In this document: in pieces, positions 1,036-51,516 of the stretch
Position numbering within the stretch: position 1 is the first letter of the stretch
How the letters are laid out: every line of letters starts with the position of its first letter
Origin: Desulfitobacterium dichloroeliminans LMG P-21439
Lineage (GTDB): Bacteria; Bacillota; Desulfitobacteriia; Desulfitobacteriales; Desulfitobacteriaceae
Reading direction: 5' to 3'
DNA: 64,000 nt
Assembly: GCF_000243135.2 (NCBI RefSeq)
Contig: NC_019903.1
Span: 286,001-350,000 of the forward strand
Program-made: the position numbers and the translations under genes
Notes under the pieces: model-generated
The model's database searches: none
What the model was told of the DNA's origin: nothing
Seen by the model: only the letters and a program-made list of their open reading frames with translations

Positions 1036-1094
1036 CTTTATCACCTTCCAGTTCATCGCTAAATAGTTCGACGAATTAGAATGAAATCCTTTAT

Positions 1095-1121: not shown

Positions 1122-1128
1122 GGTTGAC

Positions 1129-2228: not shown

Positions 2229-2391
2229 TTTAAGCATCCTTTCAAGTGAGGGGTCACATAGTATAGTGTATAATTAAGACGAGGATTGCTACATTTCTAA
2301 TAATAACAACATTTACCTGTCTTGAAAAGTCAGGACACGACAATATTCATGAAAAGTAGCATGGTTTCTCTATCAAGGGGGGTCAGAACAT

Positions 2392-3105: not shown

Positions 3106-3128
3106 TAGTTAAGGAAGGAAGGTACCTT

Positions 3129-3425: not shown

Positions 3426-3431
3426 TTCTAA

Positions 3432-4349
3432 ATGAATAAACGAGATTTTGCCATCGCCCTGATGATTGTGACAGCTTGGGGTGTGAATTTTACTGTCATA
3501 AAACTAGGTCTTCATGATATTCCATCCATGCTCCTAGCCGCCTTGAGATATTTAGCCACCGCCTTTCCGGCACTCCTTTTTATTAAGCCTCCCGCCGTAG
3601 CCTGGCGTTACACAATCGGCTTTGGGTTGACCGTGGGTTTGGGCCAGTTTGCCTGCTTGTTTTACGCTATCGAAATCGGGATGCCCGCCGGTGTGGCATC
3701 CGTGGTCTTGCAATCCCAAGCCTTCTTTACGTTCTTATTCGCCGCCCTGACTCTTAAGGAAAAGATTCGGAGCCGACAAATTCTTGGTCTCATGGTAGGA
3801 ATACTCGGTTTGTACTTTATCGGCGGTAATTTCGGTGCTAGAGGGATAAGCGAAATCCCTCTGGGTGGTTTACTCTTAACCGTAGTGGCCGCGGTCTCTG
3901 CGGGATTTTCCAATATTGTCATAAAATTAGCTTCTAAAAGCAGTGTCACGAAGGGCCAGAGGCTGGATATGCTAAGCTTGGTGGTCTGGTCCAGTTTAGT
4001 CCCGATCATCCCTATGTTGGGGATTGCTTTAACCTTAGATACTCCCCAGACTTTGATATCTGCTGTGCAAAACATGGATATCCCAGCAATTTTAGCCGTG
4101 CTTTATATTGCTTATGTCGCCACTTTGTTTGGCAATGCCACTTGGAGTGAACTGATGGCTAAATACCCGGTCACCCAAGTTGCCCCTATCTCCCTCCTTG
4201 TTCCCATCACGGGCTTGATTACCGCTCAAATCGTCTTAGCTGAGTATCTAGACCTATGGCAATGGCTGGGATGCTTTGTCATTCTTTTCGGTTTAGTGAT
4301 TATGAATTTTGGCATGACGCCCCTGCGTTTGCTTTTAAAGAAGAGGTAA
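3432..4349 (+). CDS. eamA: EamA-type drug/metabolite exporter
   Basis: A 305-residue transporter of the drug/metabolite (DMT) superfamily with ten predicted helices in two EamA repeats. The match to E. coli EamA (YdeD) as I remember it is close along the whole length. Shared phrases are AWGVNFTVIKLGLHDIP at the start, YAIEIGMPAGVASVVLQ in helix 3-4, and VAPISLLVPITGL in helix 9. EamA exports O-acetylserine and cysteine-pathway metabolites; the same substrate is likely here but is inferred. Only 6 nt separate it from the preceding small gene. The ribosome site (GAAGG) lies inside that gene's tail. Confidence 0.85.
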   Translation: MNKRDFAIALMIVTAWGVNFTVIKLGLHDIPSMLLAALRYLATAFPALLFIKPPAVAWRYTIGFGLTVGLGQFACLFYAIEIGMPAGVASVVLQSQAFFTFLFAALTLKEKIRSRQILGLMVGILGLYFIGGNFGARGISEIPLGGLLLTVVAAVSAGFSNIVIKLASKSSVTKGQRLDMLSLVVWSSLVPIIPMLGIALTLDTPQTLISAVQNMDIPAILAVLYIAYVATLFGNATWSELMAKYPVTQVAPISLLVPITGLITAQIVLAEYLDLWQWLGCFVILFGLVIMNFGMTPLRLLLKKR

Positions 4350-4387
4350 GCTCTGACCGATTTCTGTAGTTTTTGAGGTGAAAACAC

Positions 4388-5452
4388 ATGGAGATTATCG
4401 AAGATAAACTGCGTGAATTAGAAAGCATCCCTTATTTGGGGAGATACCCTAAAGATTTTAGCGAATTTTGGCTGGAGAGCTTAAGGACTGATCATAGGGT
4501 TACGGCTCGCCTGGAGTTAGAAAGAATCTCTTACCCTATTGCTAAGGTTGAGGTATTTTCAGCGACCGTTCTAGCCGGAGACGAGGTCGAGTTAAAGGGG
4601 TATTATCTAAGGCCAGCCTTAACAGCGAATAACACTGATGGCCTTGGGAAAAGAGAAAAGATAGAGCTAAGTCTTGACGAAAGGGTGCAGTCTCAGCTGC
4701 TCCCCGGAATAGTGCGCTTTCATGGCTATTCCGGCAATCGGGGCCAGATCTCTGAGTTGCTTTTATGGGCTTTGCAAGGTTATGCCATCCTTGCCTTAGA
4801 TGTACGGGGGCAAAGTGGAGAGACACCTGATCACCGCGTCTATCCCTCTGGGTCTTTTTCCGGCTGGATGACCTTAGGTCTGGAATCTCCGCGCCGCCAT
4901 TACTTTCGCCAAGTCTATCTGGATGCGGTCCGAGCGGTGGCGGCTCTTGCCAATCAATCTGAGGTAGATGAAAGGCGAATCGGCTGTATAGGCAAAAGTC
5001 AAGGCGGTGGCCTTGCAGTTGCCGCCGCGGCACTTACGAATACTTTGGGAAAAGAAGTGGGGTTGCGAAGCCAAGTGAAGGCAGTTTCGGCCGCCATTCC
5101 TTTTCTCTGTGATTTTCGCCGCGGTTATCAGCTGCAGAGTGATGGTCCTCTCGATGAGCTGGTCTGGTATTTTAAACTTCATGATCCGGAGCATCGGGGT
5201 GAGAAGGAGATATTTAAGACTCTGGATTATTTTGACACAGTTCACTTCGCTCCTTGGCTGGGAGAAGAAGTCTCAAGTCTCGTGTCCATGGGATTAAAGG
5301 ACACGGTTTGCCCTCCAATTACTATTTATGCCTTGTATAGGGCGATTCATGGGAAGAAGCAGCTTCTCGCCTACCCGGAATACGGCCATGAATCTCCAGA
5401 TGAGTTTGTGGATCGACAGATCGAGTTTTTGGCTGGGGTACTGGGGGTTTAA
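4388..5452 (+). CDS. Acetyl xylan esterase / cephalosporin-C deacetylase family hydrolase
   Basis: A 354-residue alpha/beta hydrolase of the AXE1 (PF05448) type, which deacetylates sugars and cephalosporin C. The catalytic triad is visible: nucleophile Ser204 in GKSQGG, Asp305 in LKDTVCPP, and His334 in YGHE. The oxyanion-loop region FHGYSGNRG (111-119) is also typical. There is no signal peptide, so it is cytoplasmic and may handle imported acetylated oligosaccharides. The family is usually about 320 residues; the extra length lies near residues 78-105. GAGGTG precedes the ATG. A hairpin terminator follows at 5518. Confidence 0.85.
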   Translation: MEIIEDKLRELESIPYLGRYPKDFSEFWLESLRTDHRVTARLELERISYPIAKVEVFSATVLAGDEVELKGYYLRPALTANNTDGLGKREKIELSLDERVQSQLLPGIVRFHGYSGNRGQISELLLWALQGYAILALDVRGQSGETPDHRVYPSGSFSGWMTLGLESPRRHYFRQVYLDAVRAVAALANQSEVDERRIGCIGKSQGGGLAVAAAALTNTLGKEVGLRSQVKAVSAAIPFLCDFRRGYQLQSDGPLDELVWYFKLHDPEHRGEKEIFKTLDYFDTVHFAPWLGEEVSSLVSMGLKDTVCPPITIYALYRAIHGKKQLLAYPEYGHESPDEFVDRQIEFLAGVLGV

Positions 5453-5517
5453 GTCGAATCCGAGTAGTGATAATGTTAACCTATTCGATGTATTCCAGAG
5501 GATAGAAAGTTTCTACG

Positions 5518-5551
5518 AAAAGCATTTCTTTTTAGAAGGGGATGCTTTTTT
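5518..5551 (+). terminator. Terminator after the esterase gene
   Basis: AAAAGCAT (5518-5525) pairs with ATGCTTTT (5542-5549), with a further TTCT/AGAA step inside, and ends in a run of T. It lies 65 nt past the esterase stop and should end the eamA-esterase transcript. Confidence 0.75.
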
Positions 5552-5678
5552 CGCATTCAAACTAGGGTGAAGTGCTGGGGTGAAGAAACTGCATGTGGGT
5601 TACAAAGGTTGCGTCTCGCCTTTCAGTTAAGTCCTAGGGTGAATTAAATAACCGTATTTCAATAATAAGATAGCGATA

Positions 5679-5722
5679 ATCGTTCGAAATTTATTGCAAA
5701 ACGATAAAACGCGTAGTATAAT
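5679..5722 (+). promoter_or_regulatory. Sigma-A promoter of the DUF2975-HTH pair
   Basis: TTGCAA (5694-5699), a 17-nt spacer and TATAAT (5717-5722) form a near-consensus housekeeping promoter 32 nt before the DUF2975 ATG. An ATCGTT (5679-5684) and AACGAT (5699-5704) inverted pair spans the -35, a possible operator for the small HTH protein encoded downstream. The operator role is inference. Confidence 0.7.
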
Positions 5723-5753
5723 CAACTTACAATAAATAAGTGAGGTGCTTATT

Positions 5754-6227
5754 ATGAATCGAGAAACACTCTTTTTGAAAATTGCTGTCTTTCTGATAGC
5801 AGCTCCGGTTCTTGCTTTGGCTCTACTTGGCATACCATGGTTAGCGACTAATCCAGCAAATCCAGTGTATGCTCGTGTACTGTACCCGATTATAGCCATT
5901 ATGTACTTATCCACGGTCCCGTTCTTCGTTGCCTTGTATCAGTCTTTCAAGCTTCTAAGCTATATTGATAAGAATGAAGCGTTCTCCGATAGTTCAGTAA
6001 AGACTCTAAAAAAGATAAAATTCTGCGCCATGATAATCAGTGTTTTATATGTGGGCTGTTGGCCTTTCGTCCTCGGGGTTGCGGAATTAGACGATGCCCC
6101 CGGTCTTGCGATTGTCGGCATGGTTCCGATTTTCGCTTCGATGGTCATAGCGGTCTTCGCCGCTGTTCTTGAAAAACTTCTTGCTAAAGCCATTGCTATA
6201 AAGTCTGAAAACGAATTAACGATTTGA
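5754..6227 (+). CDS. DUF2975 family membrane protein
   Basis: A 157-residue integral membrane protein with four predicted helices (roughly residues 10-30, 48-68, 95-115 and 125-147). The central loop (FKLLSYIDKNEAFSDSSVKTLKKIK) is typical of DUF2975, which is regularly encoded next to a YozG-type HTH protein, as here. The start is the ATG at 5754, with GAGGTG upstream. The HTH gene begins 10 nt after its stop, so the pair forms one operon. Function is unknown; the pairing suggests a membrane partner or sensor for the small regulator. Confidence 0.8.
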   Translation: MNRETLFLKIAVFLIAAPVLALALLGIPWLATNPANPVYARVLYPIIAIMYLSTVPFFVALYQSFKLLSYIDKNEAFSDSSVKTLKKIKFCAMIISVLYVGCWPFVLGVAELDDAPGLAIVGMVPIFASMVIAVFAAVLEKLLAKAIAIKSENELTI

Positions 6228-6237
6228 GGTGTTGAAC

Positions 6238-6453
6238 ATGGCGATAATTATCAATCTTGATGTGATGTTGGCCAAAAGGAAGATGAGCCTCACAGAACTG
6301 TCGGAGAGGGTTGGAATTACCATGGCCAATCTTTCGATATTAAAAAATGGCAAGGCAAAGGCGGTTCGCTTGTCCACTTTAGATGAGATCTGTAAGGCCT
6401 TAGAATGTCAGCCGGGAGATATTCTAGAATACAAAAGCGAGGAAATTACATAA
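6238..6453 (+). CDS. Small Cro/CI-type HTH regulator (YozG-like)
   Basis: A 71-residue DNA-binding protein consisting of one helix-turn-helix of the Xre/Cro class. The features are MLAKRKMSLTELSERVGIT for the first helices, the recognition helix around ANLSILKNGKAKAVRLSTL, and the family's C-terminal ICKALECQPGDILEY. A GAGGTG that overlaps the preceding stop serves the ATG at 6238. It probably regulates its own operon with the DUF2975 protein through the site near 5679-5704. A strong terminator follows at 6479. Confidence 0.85.
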   Translation: MAIIINLDVMLAKRKMSLTELSERVGITMANLSILKNGKAKAVRLSTLDEICKALECQPGDILEYKSEEIT

Positions 6454-6478
6454 GGAGTCTAGGGTAAGTGGCGGTTTT

Positions 6479-6510
6479 AGTTGGTAATAATTTATTACCA
6501 ACTTTTTTTG
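6479..6510 (+). terminator. Terminator of the DUF2975-HTH operon
   Basis: A 12-bp perfect palindrome (AGTTGGTAATAA and its complement) followed by seven T residues. It lies 26 nt past the HTH stop. Confidence 0.85.
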
Positions 6511-6827
6511 CTTTAATTTTTTTGCTTTAAACAGAGGATTTGTTCTATAGGCTGAGGCGAGGATAATGTGAATAAAAGGCGATTCCCGAGAGGGGAGGGA
6601 TGAGGACATCAGTAGGTTCCTTGGTCTCGAAGAAAGATATAAAAATCGTCGAGACTGTCACGGATCACATTTTTCGGGAATAAATAACAATGAGGGGCGA
6701 ATGGGACGTCTCCATGGCCTCTCTAATTACTCCCCTTTCGAGGGCTGATAATGTTGGGTGTCACTTGAGTTGACGTGAATAGAGCAGATTAGGTTTATAG
6801 AGGGGAAAAGAGGGGAGGTTAAGAGCT
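6511..6827. other. Intergenic stretch with no supported gene
   Basis: About 317 nt with several purine-rich GAGGGG blocks and only very short reading frames. One 27-codon frame begins near 6600 with no clear ribosome site and no recognisable product. The stretch precedes a YvrJ/amidase pair; in related gene sets that position often holds small DUF1659/DUF2922 genes, but I cannot recognise remnants of them here. TTGACG at about 6769 could be part of a promoter for the pair. Confidence 0.4.
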
Positions 6828-6989
6828 ATGGAAGATATCCTTAATATAGTGGGGAATTTTGGCTTTCCGATCGCCGTAAGTATCTACCTTTTAGTACGCA
6901 TCGAGGGAAAACTCAATGACCTCACCTCAAGCATTACGGAGCTGGCCAGGGCCATAGCCATCCTAGAAGTGAAGGGGGATGGGAAGTAA
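6828..6989 (+). CDS. YvrJ family small membrane protein
   Basis: A 53-residue protein. Its N-terminal half is a single membrane helix with the YvrJ signature (IVGNFGFPIAVSIYLLVRIEGKL), followed by a short amphipathic tail. AGGGGAGG lies about 10 nt upstream of the ATG. Its stop overlaps the ATG of the amidase by one base (TAATG), so the two are translationally coupled. The small one-helix topology next to a peptidoglycan amidase recalls a holin-endolysin pair. YvrJ has no proven function, so this is inference. Confidence 0.8.
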   Translation: MEDILNIVGNFGFPIAVSIYLLVRIEGKLNDLTSSITELARAIAILEVKGDGK

Positions 6990-7441
6990 TGGATTGGCAG
7001 AAGATTGTAATCCACCATTCAGCAAGTCCCACCTCTGTGAAGAGGGGAACGACGGATGTGCCAGTCGACGCAGCTATGATTCGGCAGTGGCATCTGGCCA
7101 AAGGCTGGAGTGACATCGGGTATCACTTTGTGATACTCCCCGATGGCCGCTGTGAAGAGGGCAGACCCCTGTTCAAGCCAGGAGCCCATTGTGTGGCTGG
7201 GCATCGGAACTTTATCGGTATCGGCATCTGTCTCGTGGGGAATTTTAGCCTGTCGGATGAGATTCCGGAGGCGCAGCTGAATGGATTAGTGACCCGGGTC
7301 ATCTCCTTGATGCAAATCTATGGCCTAGGCATCGAGGATGTGGAGCTCCATCGGGAGATCCCCGGAGCGGCCACAGAGTGCCCGGGAAGGTTTTTTCCTG
7401 AGGACTTGTTCGGAAGGGAGCTCAGGGAGCGATTGGGTTGA
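6989..7441 (+). CDS. N-acetylmuramoyl-L-alanine amidase, PGRP fold
   Basis: A 150-residue zinc amidase (Amidase_2/PGRP fold) that would cut the bond between muramic acid and the peptide stem. The expected zinc ligands are visible: His in IHHSA (residues 8-12), His in VELHREI (about 121), and Cys in TECPGR (about 130). The central GYHFVILPDGRCEEGR and NFIGIGICLVGNF strands are typical of the fold. There is no signal peptide and no cell-wall-binding domain, so the protein would need a holin or lysis to reach the wall. It is coupled to the YvrJ gene, as in phage-derived lysis modules. Confidence 0.85.
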   Translation: MDWQKIVIHHSASPTSVKRGTTDVPVDAAMIRQWHLAKGWSDIGYHFVILPDGRCEEGRPLFKPGAHCVAGHRNFIGIGICLVGNFSLSDEIPEAQLNGLVTRVISLMQIYGLGIEDVELHREIPGAATECPGRFFPEDLFGRELRERLG

Positions 7442-7462
7442 GATGTGTAAGAAGGAGAAGAA

Positions 7463-7505
7463 AAACGATGCCTAACTTCAAAAAAGTTGGGGCATCGTTT
7501 ATTTG
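7463..7505. terminator. Shared bidirectional terminator
   Basis: AAACGATGCC (7463-7472) pairs with GGCATCGTTT (7491-7500), with further pairing inside. It lies between the convergent amidase and coiled-coil genes with A/T runs on both sides, so it can end both transcripts. Related hairpins occur at 24751 and 54885. Confidence 0.75.
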
Positions 7506-7515
7506 TTTACCTTTT

Positions 7516-7968
7516 TTATTTTGTTTCTAAACGACTAAGTCGTTCAGCAAATTCTTTGTTAGCCTTGAGTTGACTATCACGGAAGTCGAACAAGGAGGTA
7601 ATCTTTTTGTTGATATCGTGTTCCATGCGGACTTGACTATGTCTAATATTGGTGATATCAAGCTGCATTTTTTCTTGGTTGACTGAAAGTGTATCCAAGC
7701 TATCTGAAAGAACTTTCAATTGCTCAAACACTTGCTCGAATCTAATCAAAGCTTGTTCTTGGAACTTATCATTCTGATTAAGCTTCTGAGAAATCTGCTC
7801 GAATCGATTCAAAGCCTGCTCTTGGAACTTATCATTCTGATTAAGCTTCTGAGAAATTTGCTCGAATCGATTCAGAGTTTGTTCTTGGAAATCATCATTC
7901 TGATCAAGTTTATGGAAGATCTGCTCGAGTCGATTTAATACCTGTCCTTGAAACATCTCATTATCCAT
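7516..7968 (-). CDS. Coiled-coil protein built of 21-residue repeats
   Basis: A 150-residue, all-helical protein of unknown function. Residues 6-68 are three tandem copies of a 21-residue unit (FQEQALNRFEQISQKLNQNDK and variants), and a fourth partial copy continues to about residue 84. The C-terminal part (INKKITSLFDFRDSQLKANKEFAERLSRLE) resembles the coiled-coil tails of small phage and Firmicute proteins. The start is the ATG at 7968, 7 nt after GGAGG. The 21-residue unit is three heptads, so a long parallel coiled coil is expected. It is convergent with the amidase gene and shares its terminator. Confidence 0.75.
   Translation of the reverse strand: MDNEMFQGQVLNRLEQIFHKLDQNDDFQEQTLNRFEQISQKLNQNDKFQEQALNRFEQISQKLNQNDKFQEQALIRFEQVFEQLKVLSDSLDTLSVNQEKMQLDITNIRHSQVRMEHDINKKITSLFDFRDSQLKANKEFAERLSRLETK
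7720..7953 (-). repeat. 63-bp in-frame tandem repeats
   Basis: Three full 63-bp units (7765-7953) and a partial fourth lie inside the coiled-coil gene. The two middle copies are nearly identical in DNA as well as protein. That suggests recent duplication or ongoing copy-number change by slippage or recombination. Confidence 0.8.
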
Positions 7969-8086
7969 AGACAATCCTCCACCCCTTATCTACCTAGTGG
8001 ATAACTAGTTTAATTATACCAATAAAAGGGACAGGTTCACAATAGGATATTATTCAATAGGTAAAGAGATAACTAAAAATTTCTAT

Positions 8087-8123
8087 TTGATTATGCTTAA
8101 AGTTAGACTATACTAACTTTAAG
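8087..8123 (+). promoter_or_regulatory. feo promoter with overlapping palindromic operator
   Basis: TTGATT (8087-8092), a 16-nt spacer and TATACT (8109-8114) make a promoter about 95 nt before feoAB. An 11-bp perfect inverted repeat covers the -10: CTTAAAGTTAG (8096-8106), a 6-nt centre, then CTAACTTTAAG (8113-8123). The TTAG...CTAA layout recalls DtxR/IdeR/MntR-family metal-repressor boxes. Iron repression is inferred from the downstream gene. Confidence 0.7.
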
Positions 8124-8208
8124 GAAGTAAAATATTAGCCTGTGTCACGGCAGGTACAAGCAAAAGTATTTCTTTGAAAAAACACATGAAGCTCAAAAGG
8201 AGAAACAT

Positions 8209-36929: not shown

Positions 36930-38663
36930 TTGAAAAAATTAATTGGATATGGTTTCGTAGAAGATATTTGGAATGTTAACGGAACAAAGATACTAAAATA
37001 TCAACAGGAAATTTGGCACGATGGCTTAAAAGAACATAAAGTTATTACGGCTACAGACGAAGAAATTCTCGAAAATAAAGTTAGAGTACAGGTTGAAAAA
37101 TGGGTCGAGAAATGGGAAGCAGTCTGTGAGAAAAAGCGTATAGAAGATAATAAAAAGGCTAGTGCAGATGAGGCTGCTTATAGAACTAAAGAAGCTGAAG
37201 AGAAATTGGCAGAAGTAGAAAACATTTTATTTAGCACATTAGATGTTGACGATTCAGTTGATTGGGAAACACTGAAGAATAAGGATGAATTTAAGTCGCC
37301 TTATCCAGTAAAACCAACTGATCCAAAGTTAGAGCGCCTTCCTAGTGCCCCAGATAAGAATGCTCCAGAATTTCAGCCGAAATTGAATTTCTTCTCAAAA
37401 ATCATTAATTCTTTCAAGGACAAAGCTATTGCCGAATCTGAGCTTGTTTATAAAACAGCTCATGAAAAGTGGCAAAGGGTTTATGATGAGACAGTTAGGA
37501 ATAATAATCAACTGACAGTAACCTATGAAAAGAGTATCGGTGACTTCAATCAGAATGTTATTAAGTGGGAAACTGAGAAGGAAGAGTATCTTAAAAAGCA
37601 AAATGAATTCAATGCAAAAATTGATGAACTAAAATCAAAGTATACATCTTCTGATGTTTTGGGTATTCTTGAATATTGTGAAATTGTACTGAATAATTCC
37701 TCTTTACCTGAATTTATTCATAAGGATTTTGAGCTTGATTATAACCCGGAAAATAAAATACTAATAATCGATTATATGCTTCCCAATATCGAAGCTTTTC
37801 CAAATGTTAAGGAAGTAAAATATTTGGTTTCTAAAAATGAATTAAAGGTAACTTACCAAAACGATGCTTTCATGGATAGACTCTTCGACTTAACTGTTTA
37901 TAAATTAATTTTAAGGGTACTCCATGAAGAATTTGAGGCAGATATAATAGATGCTATAGATGCTATTTCCTTCAATGGTTGGGTAAATTATTTGAACAAA
38001 GCAACCGGAAATCGTGAAAATGCCTGTATTGCAAGTATTCAAGTAAAGAAAGAAGCATTTAATGCCATCGACTTAAAAAATGTAGATCCAAAAGCTTGCT
38101 TCAAAAACCTTAAAGGAGTTAGCAGCTCAAAGTTAGCTGGCATTACTCCTGTTCAACCTATTTTAACTATGAATAAACAAGATAAGCGATTTGTTGAGTC
38201 TCATAATGTCACTCATACCTTCGATGACTCCACTAACTTGGCTGCAATCTCATGGGAAGATTTCGAACATCTTATCAGAGAAGTATTCGAGACCGAATTC
38301 TCTTCAAATGGTGGTGAAGTAAAAGTTACCCAAGCAAGTCGAGATGGTGGTGTAGATGCCGTTGCTTTTGATCCAGATCCTATCCGAGGTGGAAAAATAG
38401 TAATTCAGGCTAAGCGATATACAAATACAGTTGGAGTGTCTGCGGTACGTGACTTATATGGAACCGTTATGAATGAAGGTGCGACAAAAGGGATTCTTGT
38501 TACAACTGCGGACTATGGCCCTGACGCTTATGAGTTTGCAAATAACAAACCAATTACTCTCCTAAATGGTGGGAACCTATTGCATTTGTTGGAGAAACAT
38601 GGGCATAAGGCTAAGATTGATTTGAAAGAAGCAAAGGCGCTAAATCTAATAAATAGTAATTAA
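36930..38663 (+). CDS. Mrr-type restriction nuclease with coiled-coil N-terminus
   Basis: A 577-residue protein. The C-terminal ~120 residues are an Mrr_cat (PF04471) PD-(D/E)XK nuclease: EDFEHLIREVFE helix, Asp476 in DGGVDAVAF, the QAK motif at 493-495 in IVIQAKRY, and the following ATKGILVTTADYG strand. The N-terminal ~240 residues are charged and coiled-coil-like, with Pro-rich linkers (about 125-145). The middle (about 245-440) has no domain I recognise. Mrr-type enzymes often cut modified DNA. TTG start with GAGAAGG just upstream. It is AT-rich compared with genes before 36 kb and stands alone. Confidence 0.8.
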   Translation: MKKLIGYGFVEDIWNVNGTKILKYQQEIWHDGLKEHKVITATDEEILENKVRVQVEKWVEKWEAVCEKKRIEDNKKASADEAAYRTKEAEEKLAEVENILFSTLDVDDSVDWETLKNKDEFKSPYPVKPTDPKLERLPSAPDKNAPEFQPKLNFFSKIINSFKDKAIAESELVYKTAHEKWQRVYDETVRNNNQLTVTYEKSIGDFNQNVIKWETEKEEYLKKQNEFNAKIDELKSKYTSSDVLGILEYCEIVLNNSSLPEFIHKDFELDYNPENKILIIDYMLPNIEAFPNVKEVKYLVSKNELKVTYQNDAFMDRLFDLTVYKLILRVLHEEFEADIIDAIDAISFNGWVNYLNKATGNRENACIASIQVKKEAFNAIDLKNVDPKACFKNLKGVSSSKLAGITPVQPILTMNKQDKRFVESHNVTHTFDDSTNLAAISWEDFEHLIREVFETEFSSNGGEVKVTQASRDGGVDAVAFDPDPIRGGKIVIQAKRYTNTVGVSAVRDLYGTVMNEGATKGILVTTADYGPDAYEFANNKPITLLNGGNLLHLLEKHGHKAKIDLKEAKALNLINSN

Positions 38664-40106: not shown

Positions 40107-40157
40107 ATACCGCTTAGTTATTTAGTATTGACATACTAAATAACTAAGCGGTATACT
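40107..40157 (+). promoter_or_regulatory. Restriction-modification promoter inside a 48-bp palindrome
   Basis: A 22-bp arm (40107-40128, starting ATACCGCTTAG) is repeated perfectly inverted at 40133-40154 around a 4-nt centre. TTGACA (40128-40133) falls on the centre, and TATACT (40152-40157) lies 18 nt on, at the right edge, giving a near-consensus promoter embedded in the palindrome. It sits 28 nt before the first gene of the type I operon. A dimeric repressor bound here would block RNA polymerase. Its regulator is not identified. Confidence 0.75.
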
Positions 40158-40184: not shown

Positions 40185-41777
40185 ATGCTTAAAGTGAATA
40201 CAAATATTGACTCTGCCCTAAACGTCTTGTATCAAAGGCAGATTTCTTCCCGCAAACAGCTGCTGAAAGAAATGCTGCGCGTTAAAATGACGTTGAAGAA
40301 GATAGAGGAAGACTCTACTATATTGAACGACAAACAGAAGATTTTTCAGCTTATGAAGAAAACTACGGAAGACGAGCTGGGCTTCTTTCCTGCGGATAGA
40401 GCAGACTTTTTAGCTATCTTTGACTCTTTAAAAGATATTGATCTTATAGATTTTACCTTGGAAATTTACAAGAATGACCGTATGGGTACTGTTATTTCGC
40501 CGGTCTACCTAAGTGAATACATAAGTGGCAGAATTAAAAAGCTCAAGCCGGAGAAAGTTCTTATCACTGAAGCAGAAAAACATTTATCGGGGCTTAGGGA
40601 AATGGTCAGCCTGATACCTAAGGTGGATATCACTTTTACAACACAGTACAAACCCATGTATATTTTGCTGCAATTGGCCTTTGCTGAGGATAAAAACATA
40701 CGCATCCGCTTTGAATCCATCTACACAGAGTGCCTAATTAATGAAAAATTTGATTATATTTATTCACTTCCTGCTTTTGGGCATAAACCTGATGAATTGA
40801 GTAAAGAGTTTCTCACAAGGGACAGCGACGGCATCGCCATCGAGAATATGCTAGATCACATAAGTGATAAGGGGACGTTGGATATTATTGTGCCAGCAAA
40901 GATAACTTTTTCCGGAATGGGATATGAAAAGCTACGTTCACATATTACTGAAAACTATCATGTGGAGAATATATACATTTTACCGGAAGGAACCTTTCGA
41001 CCGGCAACCGCTGTTAAAACTTACTTGTTTTCTATAGCTACTGAACCTCAAGAAAAAATCGAGATCGGAACATTCGAGCTCGATAAAAAGGGAATTAAGA
41101 TAGAAGACAAGAAGTCTATATCAACTAAAGAGTTTTTGGCGCATGAGGACTGGCGCATTGAACTTTTGCTTGCAGAAGACGATGAGAATATTCAGAAGTT
41201 CAAAATCTCCAATCTTCCAAAGGTGAAGTTGAAAGATATCGCCGAAGTATTCAGGGGTAAATCCATCCTGAAGAAAGACACTTCCCTAGGGAATATTTCG
41301 GTGCTTAACATCTCCAATATTGAAAATGGTGAGATTGATTATCGGGACATGGATACCATCGATGAAGAAGATCGGAAAGTAAAACGCTACGAACTGACTA
41401 CAGGTGATGTGGTGTTATCTTGCCGAGGAACGGCTATCAAGTCGGCTGTATTTGAAGCTCAGGATAAAATTATTATTGCCTCGGCAAACTTGATCGTGAT
41501 CAGGCCCAAGGAGAAAGCCAAAGGAGAGTTTATCAAGATCTTTTTTGAAAGTCCAGTGGGCTTGGCCATTATCAAAAGCTTCCAACGCGGCACCACGATT
41601 ATGAACATCAACTATGCCGACATCATGGAAATGGAGATTCCCTTGCTCCCGATGAACAGGCAACAGGAAATAATTGATCAGTATAACGAAGAACTAAAAG
41701 CTTATAAAGAAGCCATCCAAAAGGCTGAAGTGCGCTGGTCGAATAGCAAAGACAATATCTATAACGAATTATTGTAG
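40185..41777 (+). CDS. Degenerate N6-methyltransferase fused to HsdS-like specificity domain
   Basis: A 530-residue protein that opens the type I operon. Residues ~1-340 have the layout of an HsdM-like N6-adenine methyltransferase, but the key motifs are gone. Where NPPF is expected it reads YSLPAFG (193-199), and no DPxxGSG SAM loop is present (VLITEAEKH near 125-133 takes its place). Downstream, [23 protein letters not shown] and [19 protein letters not shown] are typical HsdM-fold elements. Residues ~345-530 resemble one target-recognition half of HsdS ([32 protein letters not shown], the closing MNRQQEII helix). It probably has no catalysis and may bind DNA or regulate. A GTG at 40194 is an alternative start with better spacing. 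Confidence 0.7.
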
Positions 41778-41791: not shown

Positions 41792-43348
41792 ATGTCAGTG
41801 AGCTTAGAATTTGAAAATAAACTTTGGGAAATGGCAGATAAACTGAGAGGGAATATTCAACCCTCTGATTATAAGTCGGTAATACTGGGACTTATTTTCT
41901 TGAAATACATTTCGGACAGCTTTGAAGATAAGTACAATGAATTGCTTGCAGAAGGGGATGGTTTTGAAGAAGATAGGGACGCTTACCTAGAAGACAACAT
42001 TTTCTTCGTACCACCAAGTGCCAGATGGGAATTCATCAAGAAAAGTGCCAAGCAAAGCACAATTGGCCAGATTATTGACGAAGCTATGATCGCCATTGAA
42101 AGGGAGAATAAAAACCTCAAAGGCGTATTACCGAAAAACTATGCCCGACCGGAGCTCGATAAAACTAAGCTTGGCGAGTTGATTGACCTTTTCTCCTTTA
42201 ATTTAGGAAACAAAGCGGCCAAGGCCCAAGATATCCTGGGCAGGGTCTATGAATACTTCTTAGGCAAATTCGGTTCTAGCGAAGGTGAATTTTATACGCC
42301 ACCAAGCATTGTCAAACTACTGGTAGGCATGATTGAACCATATAAAGGCAGAGTTTATGACCCATGCTGCGGATCGGGGGGTATGTTTGTCCAGTCTCAG
42401 AAATTCGTTGAAGAGCATCGCGGTAGAAAAGACGATATCCATATTTTCGGTCAGGAGTTTACTGCTACTACCTGGAGACTTTGCAAAATGAATCTTGCCA
42501 TTCGGGGAATTGACGGCAATTTGGGTGAGAGAGATGCTGATACCTTTGGCAATGACCTACATAAAAATTTGCGAGCAGACTTTGTACTGGCAAATCCCCC
42601 TTTTAATGTAAGCGACTACACTCTAATTCAGGATGATGCCCGTTGGAAGTATGGTATTCCGCCTGCCAATAATGCCAACTATGCTTGGATAGAGCACATC
42701 ATCAGCAAGCTTTCACCTAACGGAGTAGCCGGGTTTGTACTGGCTAACGGCTCGATGAGCACATCTACTAAGGCAGAAGCAGAAATTAGAAAGAATATTA
42801 TCGAAGCAGGGCTTGTGGACTGCATTATTACCATGCCACCGAATTTGTTTTATAACGTGACAATCCCAGTCTGCCTTTGGTTCATCTCCAAAAAGAGAGA
42901 AAACAGGAAGGACAAAATCCTCTTTATCGATGCCCGCAAGATGGGCTATATGGAAACCCGTAAACACAGGGAGATGACTGATGAGGAGATAAAGCAGATA
43001 TATGATACCTACCATAATTGGAGGGATACAGGCGCCACAAGTGAAAAATTGATGGTGGCTGAAAAGGCAAAACTTTATAAGATAGACAATTATAAAGATG
43101 AAGAAATGGGAGAGTATCAAGATATCCAAGGATTCTGCAAATCGGCAAGTATTGAAGAGGTCAGAAGTCATGAGTATATCTTGACCCCGGGCAGATATGT
43201 GGGTATCGAAGAAGTGGAAGATGACGGAGAGCCATTCGACGAAAAGATGGCAAAGCTTACAGGGGAGCTAGCTGAGATGTTTGCGAAATCTCATACCCTT
43301 GAGGAAGAGATCAAGCGCAGATTGGGGGCGATTGGGTATGATTTCTAA
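41792..43348 (+). CDS. hsdM: Type I restriction-modification methylase subunit
   Basis: A 518-residue N6-adenine methyltransferase. An N-terminal HsdM_N helical domain (residues ~5-140) is followed by the catalytic domain, with SAM motif [10 protein letters not shown] from Asp190 and the active site NPPF at 268-271 ([11 protein letters not shown]). The C-terminal tail is helical, for contact with HsdS. It methylates the host target and, with HsdS and HsdR, forms the restriction complex. AGGAGGG precedes the ATG. It lies 14 nt after the fused M-S-like gene and overlaps the RhuM gene by 11 nt. Confidence 0.95.
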
Positions 43349-44363
43349 AGACACGGAGATAGTTTTGTATCGGTCCCAAGATGGCACTATTAAAATTGAT
43401 GTGCGCATGGAGGATGAAACAGTATGGCTTAGTTTGAATCAGATGGCAGAACTTTTTCAACGAGATAAATCAGTCATATCCAGGCACATCAAGAACATTT
43501 TTACCGAAGGTGAGTTAGAGGAAACAGCAACTGTTGCAAATTATGCAACAGTTCAAAATGAAGGAGATAGAAGCGTTGAGAGGAGGGTAACATACTATAA
43601 TCTCGATGTTATTATCTCTGTCGGCTACCGGGTAAAATCTTTACGAGGCACACAATTTCGTATTTGGGCTACCGAACGGCTGCGAGAGTATCTTATCAAA
43701 GGTTTTACTATGAACGACGACCTCTTAAAGAAAGCAGGGGGTGGCAACTATTGGAAGGAGCTTTTGGAACGCATCCGAGATATCCGTTCCAGCGAAAAAG
43801 TGTTTTACCGACAGCTATTAGATCTTTTTGCCACAAGTATTGATTACGACTCGAAATCAGAGGAATGCAAACAGTTCTTTCAGATTGTCCAGAATAAATT
43901 GCACTATGCAGTAAATAAGCAGACCTCTGCTGAAATTATCTACAGCCGAGCCAATGCGGAATTGCCTTTTATGGGGATGAAGACATTCGCCGGTGAACAA
44001 CCCAACAAAGAGGAGGCATTGATTGCCAAGAATTACTTGGATGAAAAAGAGTTAGCCGTGTTGAATCGTATGGTTTCGGCCTTTTTTGATTTGGCAGAGC
44101 TACACGCTATGAATCATGACCCGATCTATATGCGGGACTGGCTGCCCCAGGTAGATGATTTTGCTGAACGCTACGGAAAAGGGATATTGCAAAATGCGGG
44201 AACAATCAGTCGTCAGAGTGCTATTGAGAAAGCAACTGAGGAATATAAAAAATACCGCAAACGGATATCAGATTTACCCACCCCTGTCGAACGGGATTAT
44301 CTGGAGAGCATTAAACAGACCCAGAAAAAGCTGAAAGGTAAGACAGGGGGTGAGCGGGAATGA
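43338..44363 (+). CDS. RhuM family protein
   Basis: A 341-residue protein of the RhuM/virulence-protein family (PF13310), first known from Salmonella pathogenicity island 3. The N-terminal helix-turn-helix-like part ([34 protein letters not shown]) and the segment [16 protein letters not shown] are diagnostic, and the rest is helical. Its role is not established, but it is often found inside or beside type I restriction operons, as here between hsdM and hsdS. I start it at the ATG at 43338, which overlaps hsdM; its stop overlaps the hsdS ATG (ATGA). The coupling points to co-expression with the restriction complex. Confidence 0.85.
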
Positions 44364-45661
44364 GTATTAGTGAGTGGAAAGAAGTAAAACTTGGAGAAGT
44401 ATGCACGTTAGGTGATGGTGCCCATACAAAAGTAAAGAGATTAGATAGAGGAATTTTATATTTATCCTCGAAAAATATTCAGAATGGAAAATTGAACCTT
44501 GATGATGTTTCTTATATATCCGAGGATGATTATACGAAATTATTTAGTTTAAGTAGAAGTTCAGTGAGAAATTTGCAAGATGGAGATGTACTCATTGGAA
44601 TAATAGGAACAATTGGGAATGCTTATGTTTATAGAATTAATGATAGATTTGGAATTTCAAGTTCGGTTGCTATTATCAGGCCTAACCCACAAGAACTTAA
44701 ATCGGGTTTTTTGTATTATGTTTTAAGCAGTAATTATTTTCAAAAGATTTTAGCTAGTGTAAAAGGTGGATCGGTACAGGGTTATACTAATTTACCTTTA
44801 CTGAGGAGTCTGCCGATAACCATTCCACCCATCCACGAACAAAAAGCTATCACGTCCACCCTTTCCTGCTTGGACGACAAAATTGAACTCAACAACTGCA
44901 TCAATAAGAACCTTGAGGAAATAGCACAAGCAATCTTCAAAAGCTGGTTTGTGGATTTTGAACCTTTTCAGGATGGAGAATTTGAAGACAGCGAGTTGGG
45001 GAGAATTCCTAAGGGGTGGAGAGTTGGAACTATAGGTGATCTTATCTCTGACACTTTAGGTGGAGATTGGGGGAAGGAAGTGCCACAAGGTAACTATTCT
45101 CAGGAAGTAATTTGTATCAGAGGGGCTGATATACCTGAAATAGCTACTGGTAAAAAAGGAAAACCACCTACTAGGTATATCTTAGAAAAGAATCTGGAAA
45201 AGAAAAGATTGTCAGAAGCACAAATAATAATTGAAATATCGGGTGGAAGCCCTACCCAGTCAACAGGGAGAACAGCCTTAATTACTCATCAACTTGTTAA
45301 CTTTGCAGGAAAACCTATGGTTTGTACTAATTTTTGTAGAGCTTTGTCAATGAAAAAGGAGTATTATGCAACATTTGTTTATTCAATTCTTCATTATCTA
45401 TACAACAAAGATATTTTCTTTTTATTTGAAAATGGGACGACAGGTATCAAGAATTTAGACACGAACAATCTGTTTAGCAAGTATTTAATTGTTTTGCCTG
45501 ATGATGAAACTATGATTAGATATAAAGAAATATTTGATACAATAATCAATTCGATCTACCAAAATGGAGATGAAATAGATAAGTTAAGTACTACAAGAGA
45601 TACCCTACTTCCCAAACTCATGTCCGGAGAAATCCGGGTCCCAATCGAGGAGGTGCAATAA
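44360..45661 (+). CDS. hsdS: Type I restriction-modification specificity subunit
   Basis: A 433-residue HsdS with two target-recognition domains. The first half begins WKEVKLGEVCTLGDGAH and ends with the conserved helix IPPIHEQKAITSTLSCLDDKIELNNCINKNLEEIAQAIFKSWF (written here in pieces of the family pattern). The second begins IPKGWRVGTIGDLISDTLGG and ends LSTTRDTLLPKLMSGEIRV. The two long helices set the spacer between the half-sites. The target sequence cannot be read from the protein. The ATG overlaps the RhuM stop and the stop abuts hsdR, so it is one transcript. The recognition parts are AT-rich relative to the conserved helices, usual for exchanged domains. Confidence 0.93.
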   Translation: MSISEWKEVKLGEVCTLGDGAHTKVKRLDRGILYLSSKNIQNGKLNLDDVSYISEDDYTKLFSLSRSSVRNLQDGDVLIGIIGTIGNAYVYRINDRFGISSSVAIIRPNPQELKSGFLYYVLSSNYFQKILASVKGGSVQGYTNLPLLRSLPITIPPIHEQKAITSTLSCLDDKIELNNCINKNLEEIAQAIFKSWFVDFEPFQDGEFEDSELGRIPKGWRVGTIGDLISDTLGGDWGKEVPQGNYSQEVICIRGADIPEIATGKKGKPPTRYILEKNLEKKRLSEAQIIIEISGGSPTQSTGRTALITHQLVNFAGKPMVCTNFCRALSMKKEYYATFVYSILHYLYNKDIFFLFENGTTGIKNLDTNNLFSKYLIVLPDDETMIRYKEIFDTIINSIYQNGDEIDKLSTTRDTLLPKLMSGEIRVPIEEVQ

Positions 45662-48600
45662 ATGTCGAAGAACTTCTGTGAGTCCCACTTAGAAGAAGCA
45701 ACCCTAGAATGGTTCGAAGAGCTGGGCTATGAAATAGTTTTCGCTCCCGATATTGCACCAGATGGCGATTACCCGGAGCGAGGGGATTACGGCGACATCA
45801 CTCTTAATGACAGACTAAAAGAAGCCCTCCAAAGGATCAATCCAAGGATGAGGCCAGATGCTCTGGAAGATGCCTTCAGGCAGATAACTATTCCCCAAAG
45901 TCCTAGCCTTATCATGAACAACAAGGCTTTTCAAAAGATGATCACCGACGGTATCGATGTGCAGGTGAAGCAAGCGGACGCCAGCTATCGAACGGAAAAG
46001 GTCTATGTATTTGATTTTGAGAAGCCGCTGAATAATGAGTTCATGGTAGCCAACCAGTTTACATTTATCGAACATGGGGTCGAAAAGCGTCCAGATGTGA
46101 TTGCCTTTGTTAACGGCATTCCCCTTGTAGTTATGGAATTAAAAAGTGCCAGTGATGAAAATGTGGATATCACAGATGCTTACAACCAGCTTCAGACCTA
46201 TAAAATGACCATACCTTCGCTATTCACCTATAATTCCTTCTTGGTAACCAGTGATGGGGTAAATGCTAGGGCGGGTACACTGACTTCTGATGAAGACCGT
46301 TTTATGGCCTGGCGAACTATTGATGGGGAGACGACAGCACCTTTATCGATTCCTCAACTTGAAGTGTTAATCAAGGGAATGTTCCAGCGTGACCGTTTCC
46401 TGGATATCATCAGGCATTTTGTGCTTTTCCAAAGCGATAGCCAGGACACCATAAAAATATTGGCTGGCTATCATCAGTACCATGCTGTAAATAAGGCGAT
46501 CGAAAGCACGGAGCGAGCCACTCAGGAATCCGGGGATAGAAGAATCGGTGTTATTTGGCACACTCAAGGCAGCGGTAAAAGCCTGTCTATGGTTTTCTAT
46601 GCAGGGAAACTTGTCATCAACGAGGGACTTGAAAATCCGACCATTGTAATTATCACAGACAGAAATGACCTAGATGATCAATTGTTTGGTACCTTTTTAA
46701 AAAGCAAAGGCATTTTAAGAAGTACGCCGGTGCAAGCAACAGATAGAACTCATCTGAGAGACTTACTGAATAACCGTACCAGTGGCGGTATTATTTTCAC
46801 GACCATACATAAATTCGCACCTGTAGCAAAGGAAGCAAAAGAAGAATGTGAGTTGGACAGGGCAGCCGAAGCTACTGCCCTCTACCGTACCGAAGATATG
46901 GTTCTCACCGATCGCAAGAATGTCATCGTCATGGCGGATGAAGCCCATCGCAGTCAGTATGGATTTGAAGCCGAGATCATGAAGGGTGATGATGAGGCTA
47001 ATGTGAAGTATGGCTATGCTAAATACATGCGTGACAGTCTTCCCAACGCCTCCTATATAGGGTTCACCGGGACCCCGGTGGAATTGACCGATAAAAATAC
47101 CCGAGCTGTGTTTGGGGATTACATCGATGTCTATGACATGACCCGAGCTGTTGAGGATGGAACTACGGTTAAGATTTTCTACGAAAGCAGAATTGCCAAG
47201 CTGGAGCTGCCAGAAGAACTAAAACCAAAGGTTGATACTGAGTACGATGAAATCACTGAGTATCAGGAATATACTCAAAAAGAAAAACTCAAGAGCAAAT
47301 GGGCCAGACTTGAAGCAATCGTAGGCGCTAGTGAGCGTGTAAAACAGATTGCTAAAGATATTGTAGAGCATTTTGAAAAGCGGGAACAGGCTCAGGAAAA
47401 TGCAGGTGGCAAAGCGATGATCGTGGCCATGAGCAGGAGAATCGCCATTGATCTATATCAAGAAATTGTGACGATACGACCTGAATGGCATAGTGATGAC
47501 TTGATGGCAGGAAAAATCAAAGTGGTTATGACCGGCGCATCATCCGACCCAGCGGAATGGCAGAAGTTTATCGGAAAGAAGGCCAGCAGGGAAACCTTAG
47601 CGAAGCGCATGAAGGATAAAAATGATGAGTTGAAACTGGTCATCGTCCGCGATATGTGGCTGACAGGCTTTGATGTACCAAGTATGCACACTATGTATAT
47701 AGACAAGCCCATGCAGGGGCATAACTTGATGCAGGCTATTGCTAGGGTAAATCGTGTATTTAAAGAAAAACAAGGCGGGCTTATTGTTGACTACATTGGC
47801 ATTGCTGAGAATCTGAAAGAAGCACTTGCCCAGTATACTGAAAGCGATAAGAAGACCACAGGGGTTGATACCGAAGTTGCAGGGCAGGAACTACTTATAA
47901 GGCATGATTTGATCAAAGAGTTGTTGCACGGACACGATTACAGCAAGTTCTTTACGGGCAAGCCTAGTGAAAAAATGCAAGCCATCGTGGAGACTATGGA
48001 TTATATCATCGGCCTTCGTGAGGACAGGAAAAACGACTATATCAAACTGGTCACTGAAATGGCCAGAGCATATTCTCTGTGCGCCACAACTGATATTGCG
48101 GAAAGCCTCAATGTGGAGGTTGGCTTCCATAAAGCTGTTAAAGCAAGCCTAGTTAAAATGATTAGCAATGATAATAGAAAGAAAACAACGACTCAGCTAG
48201 ACAGTGAGTTGAATCAGTTAATATCAAAGTCGATCTCATCTAATGAAGTCATCGATATTTTAAGTTCAGTGGGACTTTCCAAGCCCAATATTGCCATTCT
48301 TTCTGAAGAGTTTCTTGAGGAAGTAAAGGGAATGAAACAGAAGAACTTGGCTGTTGAGCTCTTGAACAGACTGCTTAAGGGCGGAATAAAGACCTTCTCA
48401 AGGCGTAACCTTGTCCAGTCCAAGAAATTCTCTGAATTACTGGATGCTGCGATCAGAAAATATCAGAACAGAGCTATTGAAACCACCCAAGTCATCATGG
48501 AGCTCATCGAACTTGCTAAGCAGATTAGTGAGGCAGAGAAACGCGGTGAAAGCACTGGCTTAACTCCTGATGAATTGGCGTTTTATGATGCCTTAGCAGA

Positions 48601-48844
48601 CAATGATTCTGCAAGAGAGATAATGGGCGATGAGATTCTGAAGCAAATTGCTAGAGATCTAACCCAGTCTATAAAGAAAAATATCAGCGTGGACTGGGCC
48701 ATCCGTGAGAGTGTTCAGGCTAAGATGAAGATGACCATCAAGCGACTTTTGAAGAAATATGGGTACCCGCCGGATAAGACTGCCAAAGCAGTGGACATCG
48801 TAATGGAGCAGACCAAGTTAATGTGTCAGAACGAGAGTAGATAA
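45662..48844 (+). CDS. hsdR: Type I restriction enzyme motor/nuclease subunit
   Basis: A 1060-residue HsdR. The N-terminal PD-(D/E)XK nuclease shows Asp145 (RPDVIAF) and Glu159-Leu-Lys161 (VMELKSA). The helicase has Walker A TQGSGKSL (301-308), DEAH at 426-429, the FTGTPVE motif III, and motif [18 protein letters not shown]. The C-terminal third is helical and binds the methylase core. It translocates and cuts unmodified DNA. It starts directly after the hsdS stop. All motifs look intact, so the restriction system is probably functional. Confidence 0.95.
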
Positions 48845-48963: not shown

Positions 48964-51516
48964 ATGGAGGCTAGCTTCATAAAGAAAGCACTGAATGATG
49001 AAAAAGCTGCTTATGAAGCCATAAAGCAGCGTAAAGAGAAATTTGGTGTCTTTTATAAAACGTGTTTTCATGTCCACACTCCTGAATCGTACGACTACAA
49101 ATTAAAGAATGATTGGGATAAAAACAGATATATAGCATCTACGGATCAAGAAATATTTGAATTATGTATAAGGCGTAACGTTTTTCCAAGTGTACTGAAA
49201 ATTGAAGACTTTGAACCTATAGGAGTCTTTTGTGACTATAACAGCAGGAAGGAGGTACTATCTTTTTTGCTTTTGGCAGAAGAATTAATTGTAAAGGATG
49301 TCGAAATTGTTGTAGTTTCAGATCATCATACAATACAGGGAGTCCCAAAGCTTGAAATAGCAATCAAACACTTATGCCAAATGAAGAATAGAAATACTTA
49401 TCCAGAAGTAATTTTGGGCGTTGAAATATCGTGTGCAGATAAGAACCATGTTGTAGGTGTTTTTGAGAGTTCTGATGAAAATAATCGAATGATAAATAAT
49501 TGGCTGAAAGATAATTTGCTTAATATTGAAGAAGGTACTTATGAAACTAGTAGGGAAGTATTGCAATTTATTAATTCTTTTGGGGGGATTGGCTATCTTG
49601 CACATTTGGATACTTCAAATGTATTTAAAGAACAATTTTTAAACCGTGCCTATAAACAAAAGCTATTTTCAAATGAAACGCTACATCTTGTTGGGTTATC
49701 CGATTACAATAATCATGGCTATATTAAATCACGAGTGATGAAATATCGTTCAAATGAAATCAAGTTTCTTATTGATAATGATGCGCATGATCTGGAATCA
49801 GTTGGTAATAAGTGCTTTTGGATTAAGGGCAGTAAAAGGAATTTTATTACGATCAAAGAGGCTCTTAGTGATTATGATATTTCGATAAGTTTTAAGGAAG
49901 AAAAATCTGACAGGCAATATATTAAGGGTATATATATCGAAAATTGCGAGGATGGTTTTTTAAGCGGCATATGTGGAAAAGATAACTTTTGCTTAAATTT
50001 CTCGGGTGCACTAAATTGTTTGATAGGTGGGCGTGGTGCCGGAAAAAGTAGTGTTCTTGAAATTCTAGAGTATGTTCTAAGCCAGCGATGTGAATCTGAA
50101 AAATTGCTTGATTTTATATGCGCACATGGAAACACATGGGTTTTGTATGATTTCCAGGGGGATGAATATCTAATTGAAATGCGCATGCCCTTCAAACAAG
50201 ATAATGGTGAAAATATACTTCGCTACTTCGGTCAAAACCAGAGTGATCGTTATCAATATAGCTATCGGTATAGCAAAGAGAGTGTTGAAGAGTTTGCGCT
50301 TAAACAATACATGAAAATATCAAAAGTCACATATCGTGATGGTGATTTGTGGCTCGAGACTATACCAAATAAAAAGGAAATGCTTAAGAAGTTTTTTGAC
50401 ACTCGATATTCGGTTAATGAATTGGTCAATACTGCTAGTGGCGAGCAAATAAATAAGTTCTTATATGAGGTTCTTCTTCAGAACAGGACTTTGGCGAGGC
50501 CAGCTGATGTTATTAGCGTTAGAAGTAAATCAGGCTTGAGAAAAATTCTTTCGGATGTGAAAGGCGCATTGCAGCTAAGACAAGAAGCAGTAAATACTAT
50601 AATTAGGCCATTTAATGCTAATCAACAAGGAATCCTTAGAATCGTTTATTCTCAACGGAAAATCCCGAATGAGCCCGATCTTGGACGCTGGATTTTTGGA
50701 ATGGATTATAAAGAAGAAAGCCTTTTTCATAATTATAATATTACTAAAGGGAATGTGATTGGGTATCTATTGAACTTATATGATAAGAATGAAATTTTTG
50801 ATTTCCTTGATATGGTGATTTCTAAAAAAAGTGATAAAGCGAAACAACTAATCAATATATTAGGTTTTTGTACAGATATGAATCAAAATTTAATTGACAA
50901 AGGAATTTATGAGCTAAACTCAGATAATTCGAGTAGCCTTATTAAAACGATTTTCTCTGAGCTTATCACTGATGATAACCTTAATAATATAATTTATTAT
51001 TTGAGACAGTATATTCAAGACATTGAAGAATTCTCTCTTGAGTTTAATTTAAATAATAAAGAAAGTAACAACAGAATGAGTCCATTTTATAAAGATGTGA
51101 GAATTCTTTCTCTCGGGCAAAAAGTTGTAGCAATGCTCTCTTTCATTCTCGGTTTTAGTGAGTACTCGAAAGACTATAGGCCACTAATTATAGATCAACC
51201 AGAAGACAATTTGGACAATCTGTATATTTATAGGAATTTAGTCAAGCAATTAAGGGGGGTCAAAGAGAAGCGACAGGTTATTATTGCTACGCATAGTGCG
51301 ACAATTGTTACAAATGCAAAGGCTGATCAAGTATGCGTTATGGTATCAGATGACAAGCATGGATGGATAGATAGAACAGGCTATCCCGGTGAAAATGGTA
51401 TAAAGAATCAGATAATTAATTATCTCGAAGGTGGGAAAGACTCATTTATACATAAGTTGAGTGTGTACGAAGAAGCTTTAGAACTAGTAGTAAAGAAGAA
51501 GGAAGATTGTGTGTAG
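48964..51516 (+). CDS. TrlF-family PHP-AAA ATPase
   Basis: An 850-residue protein. The N-terminal ~280 residues form a PHP-type phosphoesterase/nuclease domain with metal ligands in [11 protein letters not shown] (His36, His38), SDHHTIQG, and later HLDTSN and DNDAHD. The second part is an SMC/ABC-like ATPase: Walker [10 protein letters not shown] (355-363), a long middle with helical segments, the signature-like [11 protein letters not shown], and Walker [13 protein letters not shown] (741-752) with a following switch His (ATHSAT). This is the TrlF-type family that I associate with restriction loci. It likely acts as an ATP-controlled nuclease. It follows hsdR after 119 nt with a moderate GAGGAG site, so possibly the same operon. 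Confidence 0.8.

Follow-up and report, generated by a model that had tools for sequence, protein, structure and literature searches.

What does a gene for a methyltransferase-like protein without a methyltransferase active site do at the head of a type I restriction operon? The question is raised by an open reading frame at 40185–41777 of the window, i.e., of the whole 64,000-nt stretch of the Desulfitobacterium dichloroeliminans LMG P-21439 genome that was analyzed. This frame, called X below, lies on the forward strand and is followed on the same strand by an intact hsdM (41792–43348), a RhuM-family gene (43341–44363, in a frame open from 43281), hsdS with 2 Methylase_S stretches (44360–45661), and hsdR (45662–48844). 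Pfam and NCBIfam profile matches thus agree with a preliminary description of the locus, according to which X comes first in an operon with complete hsdM, hsdS, and hsdR.

The RhuM-family gene overlaps both hsdM and hsdS. Such a gene is likewise found in the operons of loci L004, L013, L076, and L082, and is absent from those of L007 and L011. Downstream of the type I operon lies a gene for a Spaf_1101-family AAA-like ATPase (48964–51516, NCBIfam E 1.5e-301), and an Mrr_cat gene is located at 36930–38663. Together with the type I operon, these 2 genes look like a defence island.

Architecture of X

The frame of X is indeed open over 530 aa, and the fusion of an HsdM-like half to an HsdS-like recognition half, which the preliminary description had also proposed, is reproduced by the Pfam families N6_Mtase (residues 168–325, E 3e-7) and Methylase_S (residues 346–498, E 1e-13, a single match). 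The former match is restricted to profile positions 103–273 of 311, so that the part with motif I stays unmatched. No HTH domain was found in X by a Pfam search to E 1. As for the start codon, GTG 40194 is probably the true one rather than ATG 40185, since the ribosome site GGGAGAGG touches the ATG and several orthologues begin at the codon corresponding to 40194.

The protein consists of a helical N-terminus (residues 1–100), a Rossmann-like pseudo-methyltransferase domain (~100–330, positions 40482–41174), a TRD (~345–490), and a long C-terminal helix (~490–530); the TRD and the helix (to residue 529) form a half-S module at 41217–41774, also on the forward strand. An AlphaFold2 model built from a 12-sequence alignment has moderate confidence (pLDDT 78, with values below 50 in the TRD loops 360–368, 396–398, and 470–472). 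It shows the HsdM fold, matching PDB 7vs4 (Z 24.6, rmsd 3.4 over 325 residues), 2okc (Z 24.1, rmsd 3.8 over 320), and 3lkd (Z 23.6, rmsd 3.5 over 325), and the C-terminal part of HsdM appears to be missing. Whereas HsdS has 2 TRDs and 2 spacer helices, X combines a single Methylase_S match with a single long helix at the C-terminus, which is the composition of a half-S protein. A fold search of viral structures with the same model returned giant-virus methyltransferases among the top 10, some of them with S domains (Bodo saltans virus, Cafeteria roenbergensis virus); these matches represent the general M-TRD fold and imply no regulator.

Loss of the catalytic motifs

According to an alignment with 14 HsdMs, the SAM loop and the NPPF motif are lost from X, as had been claimed. 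For motif I (DPxCGSGGM), X and all 23 X-clade rows have gaps in 8 of the 9 columns, while the motif or a close variant is present in the 14 HsdMs. Motif IV (NPP[YFW]) reads LPAF in X and is kept in 0 of the 23 X-clade rows and 0 of the 11 rows of a sister family described below, in comparison with NPP[FY] in 14 of 14 HsdMs, including the window's own and those of several X and sister-family operons. The 23 X-clade members leave out L014, L031 (partial), and L072, and the hsdM neighbours of L020 and L021 are unreadable at the motifs. With both motifs missing from 23 of 23 members, neither a sequencing error nor a recent mutation explains the loss. Displaced SAM or catalytic motifs are also rejected: none was found in X when it was aligned with 22 other proteins and then with intact HsdMs.

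In place of the lost motifs, a 12-member alignment has the invariant residues E129, A130, E131, K132, L134, G136, and L137 (EAEK.L.GL at the former motif I) as well as P196, F198, and G199 (P.FG at the former motif IV). X is under purifying selection, with a dN/dS of 0.044 relative to L003 (0.018 for the TRD half and 0.060 for the M half; one pair, with dS near saturation) and 0.045 overall relative to L004; L006 and L007 are saturated and give no ratio. A recent pseudogene is rejected by the open frames, the dN/dS of 0.044 for that one pair, and the conserved replacement motif. Judging from its sequence, X looks like a functional pseudoenzyme that has long been dead, and its methyltransferase half, devoid of the SAM loop and the catalytic motif, should not methylate.

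The expression "full-length inactive copy", used for X in the preliminary description, is nevertheless misleading, as the protein has one TRD, appears to lack the HsdM C-terminus, and shares only 16% identity with the adjoining hsdM product. A recent duplication of the neighbouring hsdM is rejected by the same low identity and by the HsdM grouping in the tree, where the 10 HsdMs nearest to the window's hsdM group with support 1.0 and X falls outside. The branch of X itself is long and weakly placed (support 0.15), so that the tree does not separate one loss shared with the sister family from 2 losses.

A conserved operator on the promoter of X

The palindrome previously noted at 40107–40157 is real: perfect inverted repeats with 22-bp arms and a 4-nt centre occupy 40107–40154 (fold z −10.7). 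Comparison of the upstream DNA across the family places within it a conserved operator core, TTTAGTA-TTGACA-TACTAAA (40121–40140). The N6 spacer of this operator is exactly the −35 hexamer TTGACA (40128–40133), which is followed at 18-nt spacing by the −10 hexamer TATACT (40152–40157), both on the forward strand.

A bipartite palindromic site with a 6–7-nt gap, RGTA-N6/7-TACY, which X would read, precedes X in 24 of the 24 non-redundant members with readable upstream DNA (25 of the 25 readable among 26 before a repeat was dropped). The members set aside are L072, whose upstream DNA is identical to that of L004, and L010, whose upstream DNA reads N. In 400 dinucleotide shuffles the same pattern reaches a mean of 0.43 and a maximum of 4 of 24; the longer TTRGTA form is present in 21 of the 24 members vs 0.02 in the shuffles. 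These shuffles understate chance because the motif was defined on the same related sequences, and the genome searches given below are a better control.

The −35 hexamer lies within the operator spacer in 19 of the 24 members, with a −10 hexamer at 17–18 nt. The exact arrangement AGTA-TTGACA-TACT, with TTGACA as N6, is shared by 14 of the 19; the N6 is TAGACA or TAGACG in L018, L019, and L073, and in L013 and L017 the −35 is one base off the spacer or the spacer is N7. The other 5 operators (L012, L029, L049, L020, and L021), which fall in 2 separate clades, are centred 17–26 bp upstream of the −35, at about −53 to −63 from the estimated start. Their spacers are no longer TTGACA, which is compatible with a protein that does not read the spacer, the sequence being fixed only where it is part of the promoter. 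A covarying half-site change from AGTA to GGTA comes from a single clade (L020 and L021). As for the outer arms of the operator, they are perfect inverted repeats (22 bp here and 20 bp in L029), and their sequence differs among loci (L009, L004, L029, and L073).

Uniqueness of the site and linkage to the gene

In the 3.62-Mb genome, both TAGTAT-N4-ATACTA (reversed control 0) and TTTAGTA-N6-TACTAAA occur once, at the promoter of X. The shorter TAGTA-N6-TACTA occurs twice (the second time at 1,090,740) and its reversed control 3 times; this form is no rarer or commoner than chance, and uniqueness thus rests on the longer one.

Among 398 Bacillota genomes, 17 contain TTTAGTA-N6-TACTAAA. In 7 of the 9 X-clade genomes it lies directly upstream of X, and the remaining 2 have variants with AGTA-N7 (genome G074) and GGTA (G087). 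The 10 other genomes with this form (11 sites) give no match to X, and no X-like ORF was found at their site-bearing loci, taken as one locus per genome with the second G164 site outside. Such a number corresponds to chance level, since the reversed control matches 13 of the 398 genomes.

A search of 100 relatives for homologues of the window's hsdM gave 13 matches in 12 genomes, 5 of them preceded by X and 8 not. The 8 X-less homologues are 55–90% identical to the window's hsdM (3 of them 86–90%), and an RGTA-type site is absent upstream of all 8; core matches in 4 of these loci (L078, L079, L083, and L086) are inside genes, not upstream. In 2 of the 8, an HTH protein takes the slot of X before hsdM: HTH_26 in L081 (1258–1476) and HTH_3 in L086 (820–1413), with hsdM 57% and 65% identical to the window's, respectively. 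X is thus optional for such operons, and the site goes with X.

Relative to the window, the TRD core of X is 73–94% identical at 7 other loci, and the M half 54–83%. The corresponding values are 81–93% for HsdM (7 loci) and 79–88% for HsdR (6 loci), but only 36–57% for HsdS (the 6 loci that have one). A constant TRD beside a changing HsdS suggests that the TRD of X probably reads something constant, and the operator is such a constant thing.

Distribution of X and the gene next door

A GTDB contig scan for X yielded 12 loci with best-segment identities of 57–86%. Matches were found in 11 of 100 relatives at E 1e-10 (8 long X-type; 3 fragments, TRD-level, or distant) and in 17 of the 398 Bacillota genomes at E 1e-15, 9 of these being X-clade; added searches contributed L049, L072, and L073. 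No new member came from 149 genomes around G159 or from 5 genomes of the class of G087, and the 8 matches in 82 genomes of the own class were all known members. The phage collection gave no match to X. All 54 records matched in the plasmid collection (20 of them listed) have identities below 60%, and none of the 54 covers 80% of X. A search of viral_contigs with X returned one locus, L049, and searches of the same collection with L020 and with Esub1, a protein introduced below, returned no match. Fragments L023 and L025 and the 704-aa L024 (26%) are excluded from all counts, and L026, L028, and L030 were dropped as repeats of L006, L009, and L012, respectively.

Locus L049 is carried by a 32-kb IMG/VR contig, where positions 253–8149 encode X, hsdM, 2 HsdS-like ORFs of 335 and 111 aa that may represent one split gene, and hsdR. 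The presence of the X operon on such a contig suggests that the system may travel on mobile DNA.

Whether X always precedes hsdM, as the preliminary description had asked, can be answered for 23 non-redundant loci (L014, L031, and L072 left out). The next gene is hsdM or a partial HsdM match in 21 of the 23, including L020 and L021, where it is an HsdM-like ORF with a 32–34% match over ~175 residues; L008 has a truncated hsdM and L018 a split one. The association is not universal, however: in L006, X is followed by a KilA-N gene and an hsdR remnant, and in L016 by an ABC transporter. Both exceptions keep the operator.

A sister family of dead M-TRD proteins

A sister family is formed by 11 further M-TRD proteins that are more distantly related to X (L022, L032–L037, and the plasmid genes L051–L054, which come from Paenibacillus, Lactococcus, Salimicrobium, and Lactobacillus and are annotated as "N-6 DNA methylase"). 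NPP[FYW] is missing from all 11, and most of them retain part of motif I. In 8 of the 11 stretches, the M-TRD gene has an HsdM gene directly or a short distance downstream. RGTA-N6/7-TACY is found in 2 of 11, twice in each (L036 at −134 and −51, L052 at −190 and −49), L032 has a different palindrome over its −35, and no comparable operator was found in the remaining members of the 11 examined. An extension of the regulatory role to this family is thus put forward as a hypothesis. The counts do not include sister-family searches of plasmids and phages, in which ordinary HsdM and other methylases were hit as well.

In L052 (5398–12050, Lactococcus cremoris pJM2A), the sister gene heads an hsdM-hsdS locus and has 2 TAGTA-N7-TACTA sites upstream. 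The locus also contains a xerA recombinase gene and further hsdS genes, one of them inverted, and is perhaps a specificity system that can be shuffled.

Proposed function

The most probable answer, to which we assign a probability of roughly 0.78, is that a dimer of X binds the operator as an autoregulator of the type I operon, most likely a repressor. X has a conserved palindrome on its own promoter, as expected of an autoregulator. The earlier suggestion of a DNA-bound regulator of the operon is strongly supported at the level of sequence by an operator that is conserved, mostly on the promoter, unique to the genome in its long form, and linked to the gene.

With its single TRD and one long helix, X would be half of a specificity subunit made from parts of a methyltransferase system, and 2 copies would be expected to pair through the C-terminal helix by analogy with engineered half-S subunits. 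The dimer would read the inverted half-sites TTTAGTA and TACTAAA and leave the 6 bases between them, TTGACA, unread. Such operator geometry fits a dimeric half specificity subunit, since the engineered one is described as reading GAAN7TTC and type I sites are reported to have gaps such as N6 (PMC3874165). Because the spacer of the operator is the −35 hexamer, a bound dimer would cover the contact of sigma and could shut off X-hsdM-rhuM-hsdS-hsdR, which would amount to negative feedback. The methyltransferase half probably serves as a dimer scaffold, or else as a sensor through the invariant patch that replaces the SAM loop. As for relief of repression, a free guess is that a ligand or partner would act at the former SAM pocket, or that a phage protein would intervene. 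In the 5 members with the operator 17–26 bp upstream of the −35, activation or other control is possible.

A role of X as an activator at the same operator, or as a dual switch of the kind known from type II C proteins (on at low and off at high concentration), seems rather unlikely. C proteins are described as both activating and repressing (PMC3874152), and 5 of the 24 operators are centred about −53 to −63, where activators also sit, next to imperfect −10 hexamers (TAGAAT, TATTCT). The 19 operators that cover the −35, however, mostly belong to promoters near consensus, which should need no help. Imperfect −10 hexamers also occur among the 19 (TATACT here and TACACT in L019, L031, and L073).

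It is very improbable that X is an accessory specificity or assembly subunit whose TRD joins active HsdM as a decoy or alternative S and alters the methylation or restriction target. M-like and S-like folds do share one chain, mostly beside an intact hsdM, and half-S proteins are reported to form a working methyltransferase with HsdM (PMC3320862). The decoy role suggested in the preliminary description is nevertheless disfavoured: the TRD of X stays constant despite the variation of HsdS, its apparent target in the long form has a single genomic occurrence, at X's own promoter, hsdM genes 86–90% identical to the window's manage without X, and the operator is kept without an adjoining hsdM in L006 and L016. 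Finally, the palindrome is hardly a terminator that serves the upstream gene, or a remnant of mobile DNA, with X as a relic. Although the repeat scores as terminator-like on both strands and is followed by a short T tract, its core is constant among loci while the outer arms differ, and the bases after the arm belong to the −10 region; a relic is at odds with the low dN/dS (0.044, one pair) and the long open frames across the family.

Comparison with known systems

The best PDB sequence match of X is Esub1 (8vsq), which aligns with residues 335–525, i.e., the TRD and the helix (E 2.7e-30; Z 19.4, rmsd 4.7 over 192, and 29% identity for the model). Unlike X with its M domain, Esub1 is known here only as a chain of ~200 residues. 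The title of PDB entry 8vsr reads "Co-crystal structure of Prx with Esub1", and paratox (Prx) is described as a protein of streptococcal phages with the transcription factor ComR as a binding partner. For Esub1, the accessible part of the literature searched gave neither an operator nor a regulatory role. The Prx of 8vsr is presumably the streptococcal prophage protein paratox. For a sensor of phage countermeasures, another role suggested for X in the preliminary description, the only hint comes from this co-crystal of a homologous TRD. Over the whole chain of X, the lowest Foldseek E-value (2.9e-17; Z 23.2 over 465) belongs to a Vibrio vulnificus YJ016 MTase (PDB 7eew), called intact in its title, whereas X lacks both motifs; the rmsd of 23–25 indicates that the domains are placed differently.

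Known control of type I restriction, as summarized in PMC12255303, comprises HsdR proteolysis and, since 2025, the repressor RptR. RptR, whose gene comes first in a type I RM island and which is strongly associated with such systems, is described as a repressor of its own promoter via palindromes (PMC12255303), and X as proposed would similarly be a first-gene autorepressor of a type I operon. In contrast to X, RptR is reported as a 9-kDa all-helical homodimer that acts on 6-bp TAGCTA motifs over the −10 and has no methyltransferase or TRD parts (PMC12255303). Certain type II modification enzymes are likewise methyltransferase-type proteins on an operator overlapping their own promoter; they are said to bind it by an N-terminal HTH (PMC3874152), however, whereas X is dead, has no HTH match, and has the TRD as its likely reader. 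The half-S protein EcoR124I-NT, with one TRD and a helix, dimerizes and reads the bipartite palindrome GAAN7TTC, as described in PMC3320862, but is engineered and active with HsdM, while X occurs naturally, carries a dead M domain in the same chain, and is linked to a promoter. As far as they are described in these sources, neither RptR nor the self-repressing type II methyltransferases read their operator with a TRD or have a dead methyltransferase for a scaffold. Among the papers listed in the literature searches, which mostly exclude subscription papers and preprints, none reports a regulator of the dead HsdM-TRD kind; this gives no proof of absence.

Implications

More tentatively, with a confidence somewhat short of even, X and the sister family may constitute a new class of transcription factors, with a type I TRD as the DNA-reading head and a gutted methyltransferase domain as the sensor (the invariant EAEK patch of the X clade in place of the SAM loop). 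This class would govern type I restriction in many Bacillota and would itself be targeted by phage proteins, as the Prx-Esub1 complex suggests. If the proposed role of X is true, type I restriction would have a second transcriptional control, unrelated to RptR and made of the system's own components. The operator may also be a natural record of half-S recognition, from which TRD specificity could be read. Regulators may be hidden among the genes annotated as N-6 DNA methylase, with consequences for methylome work and DNA transfer into these bacteria.
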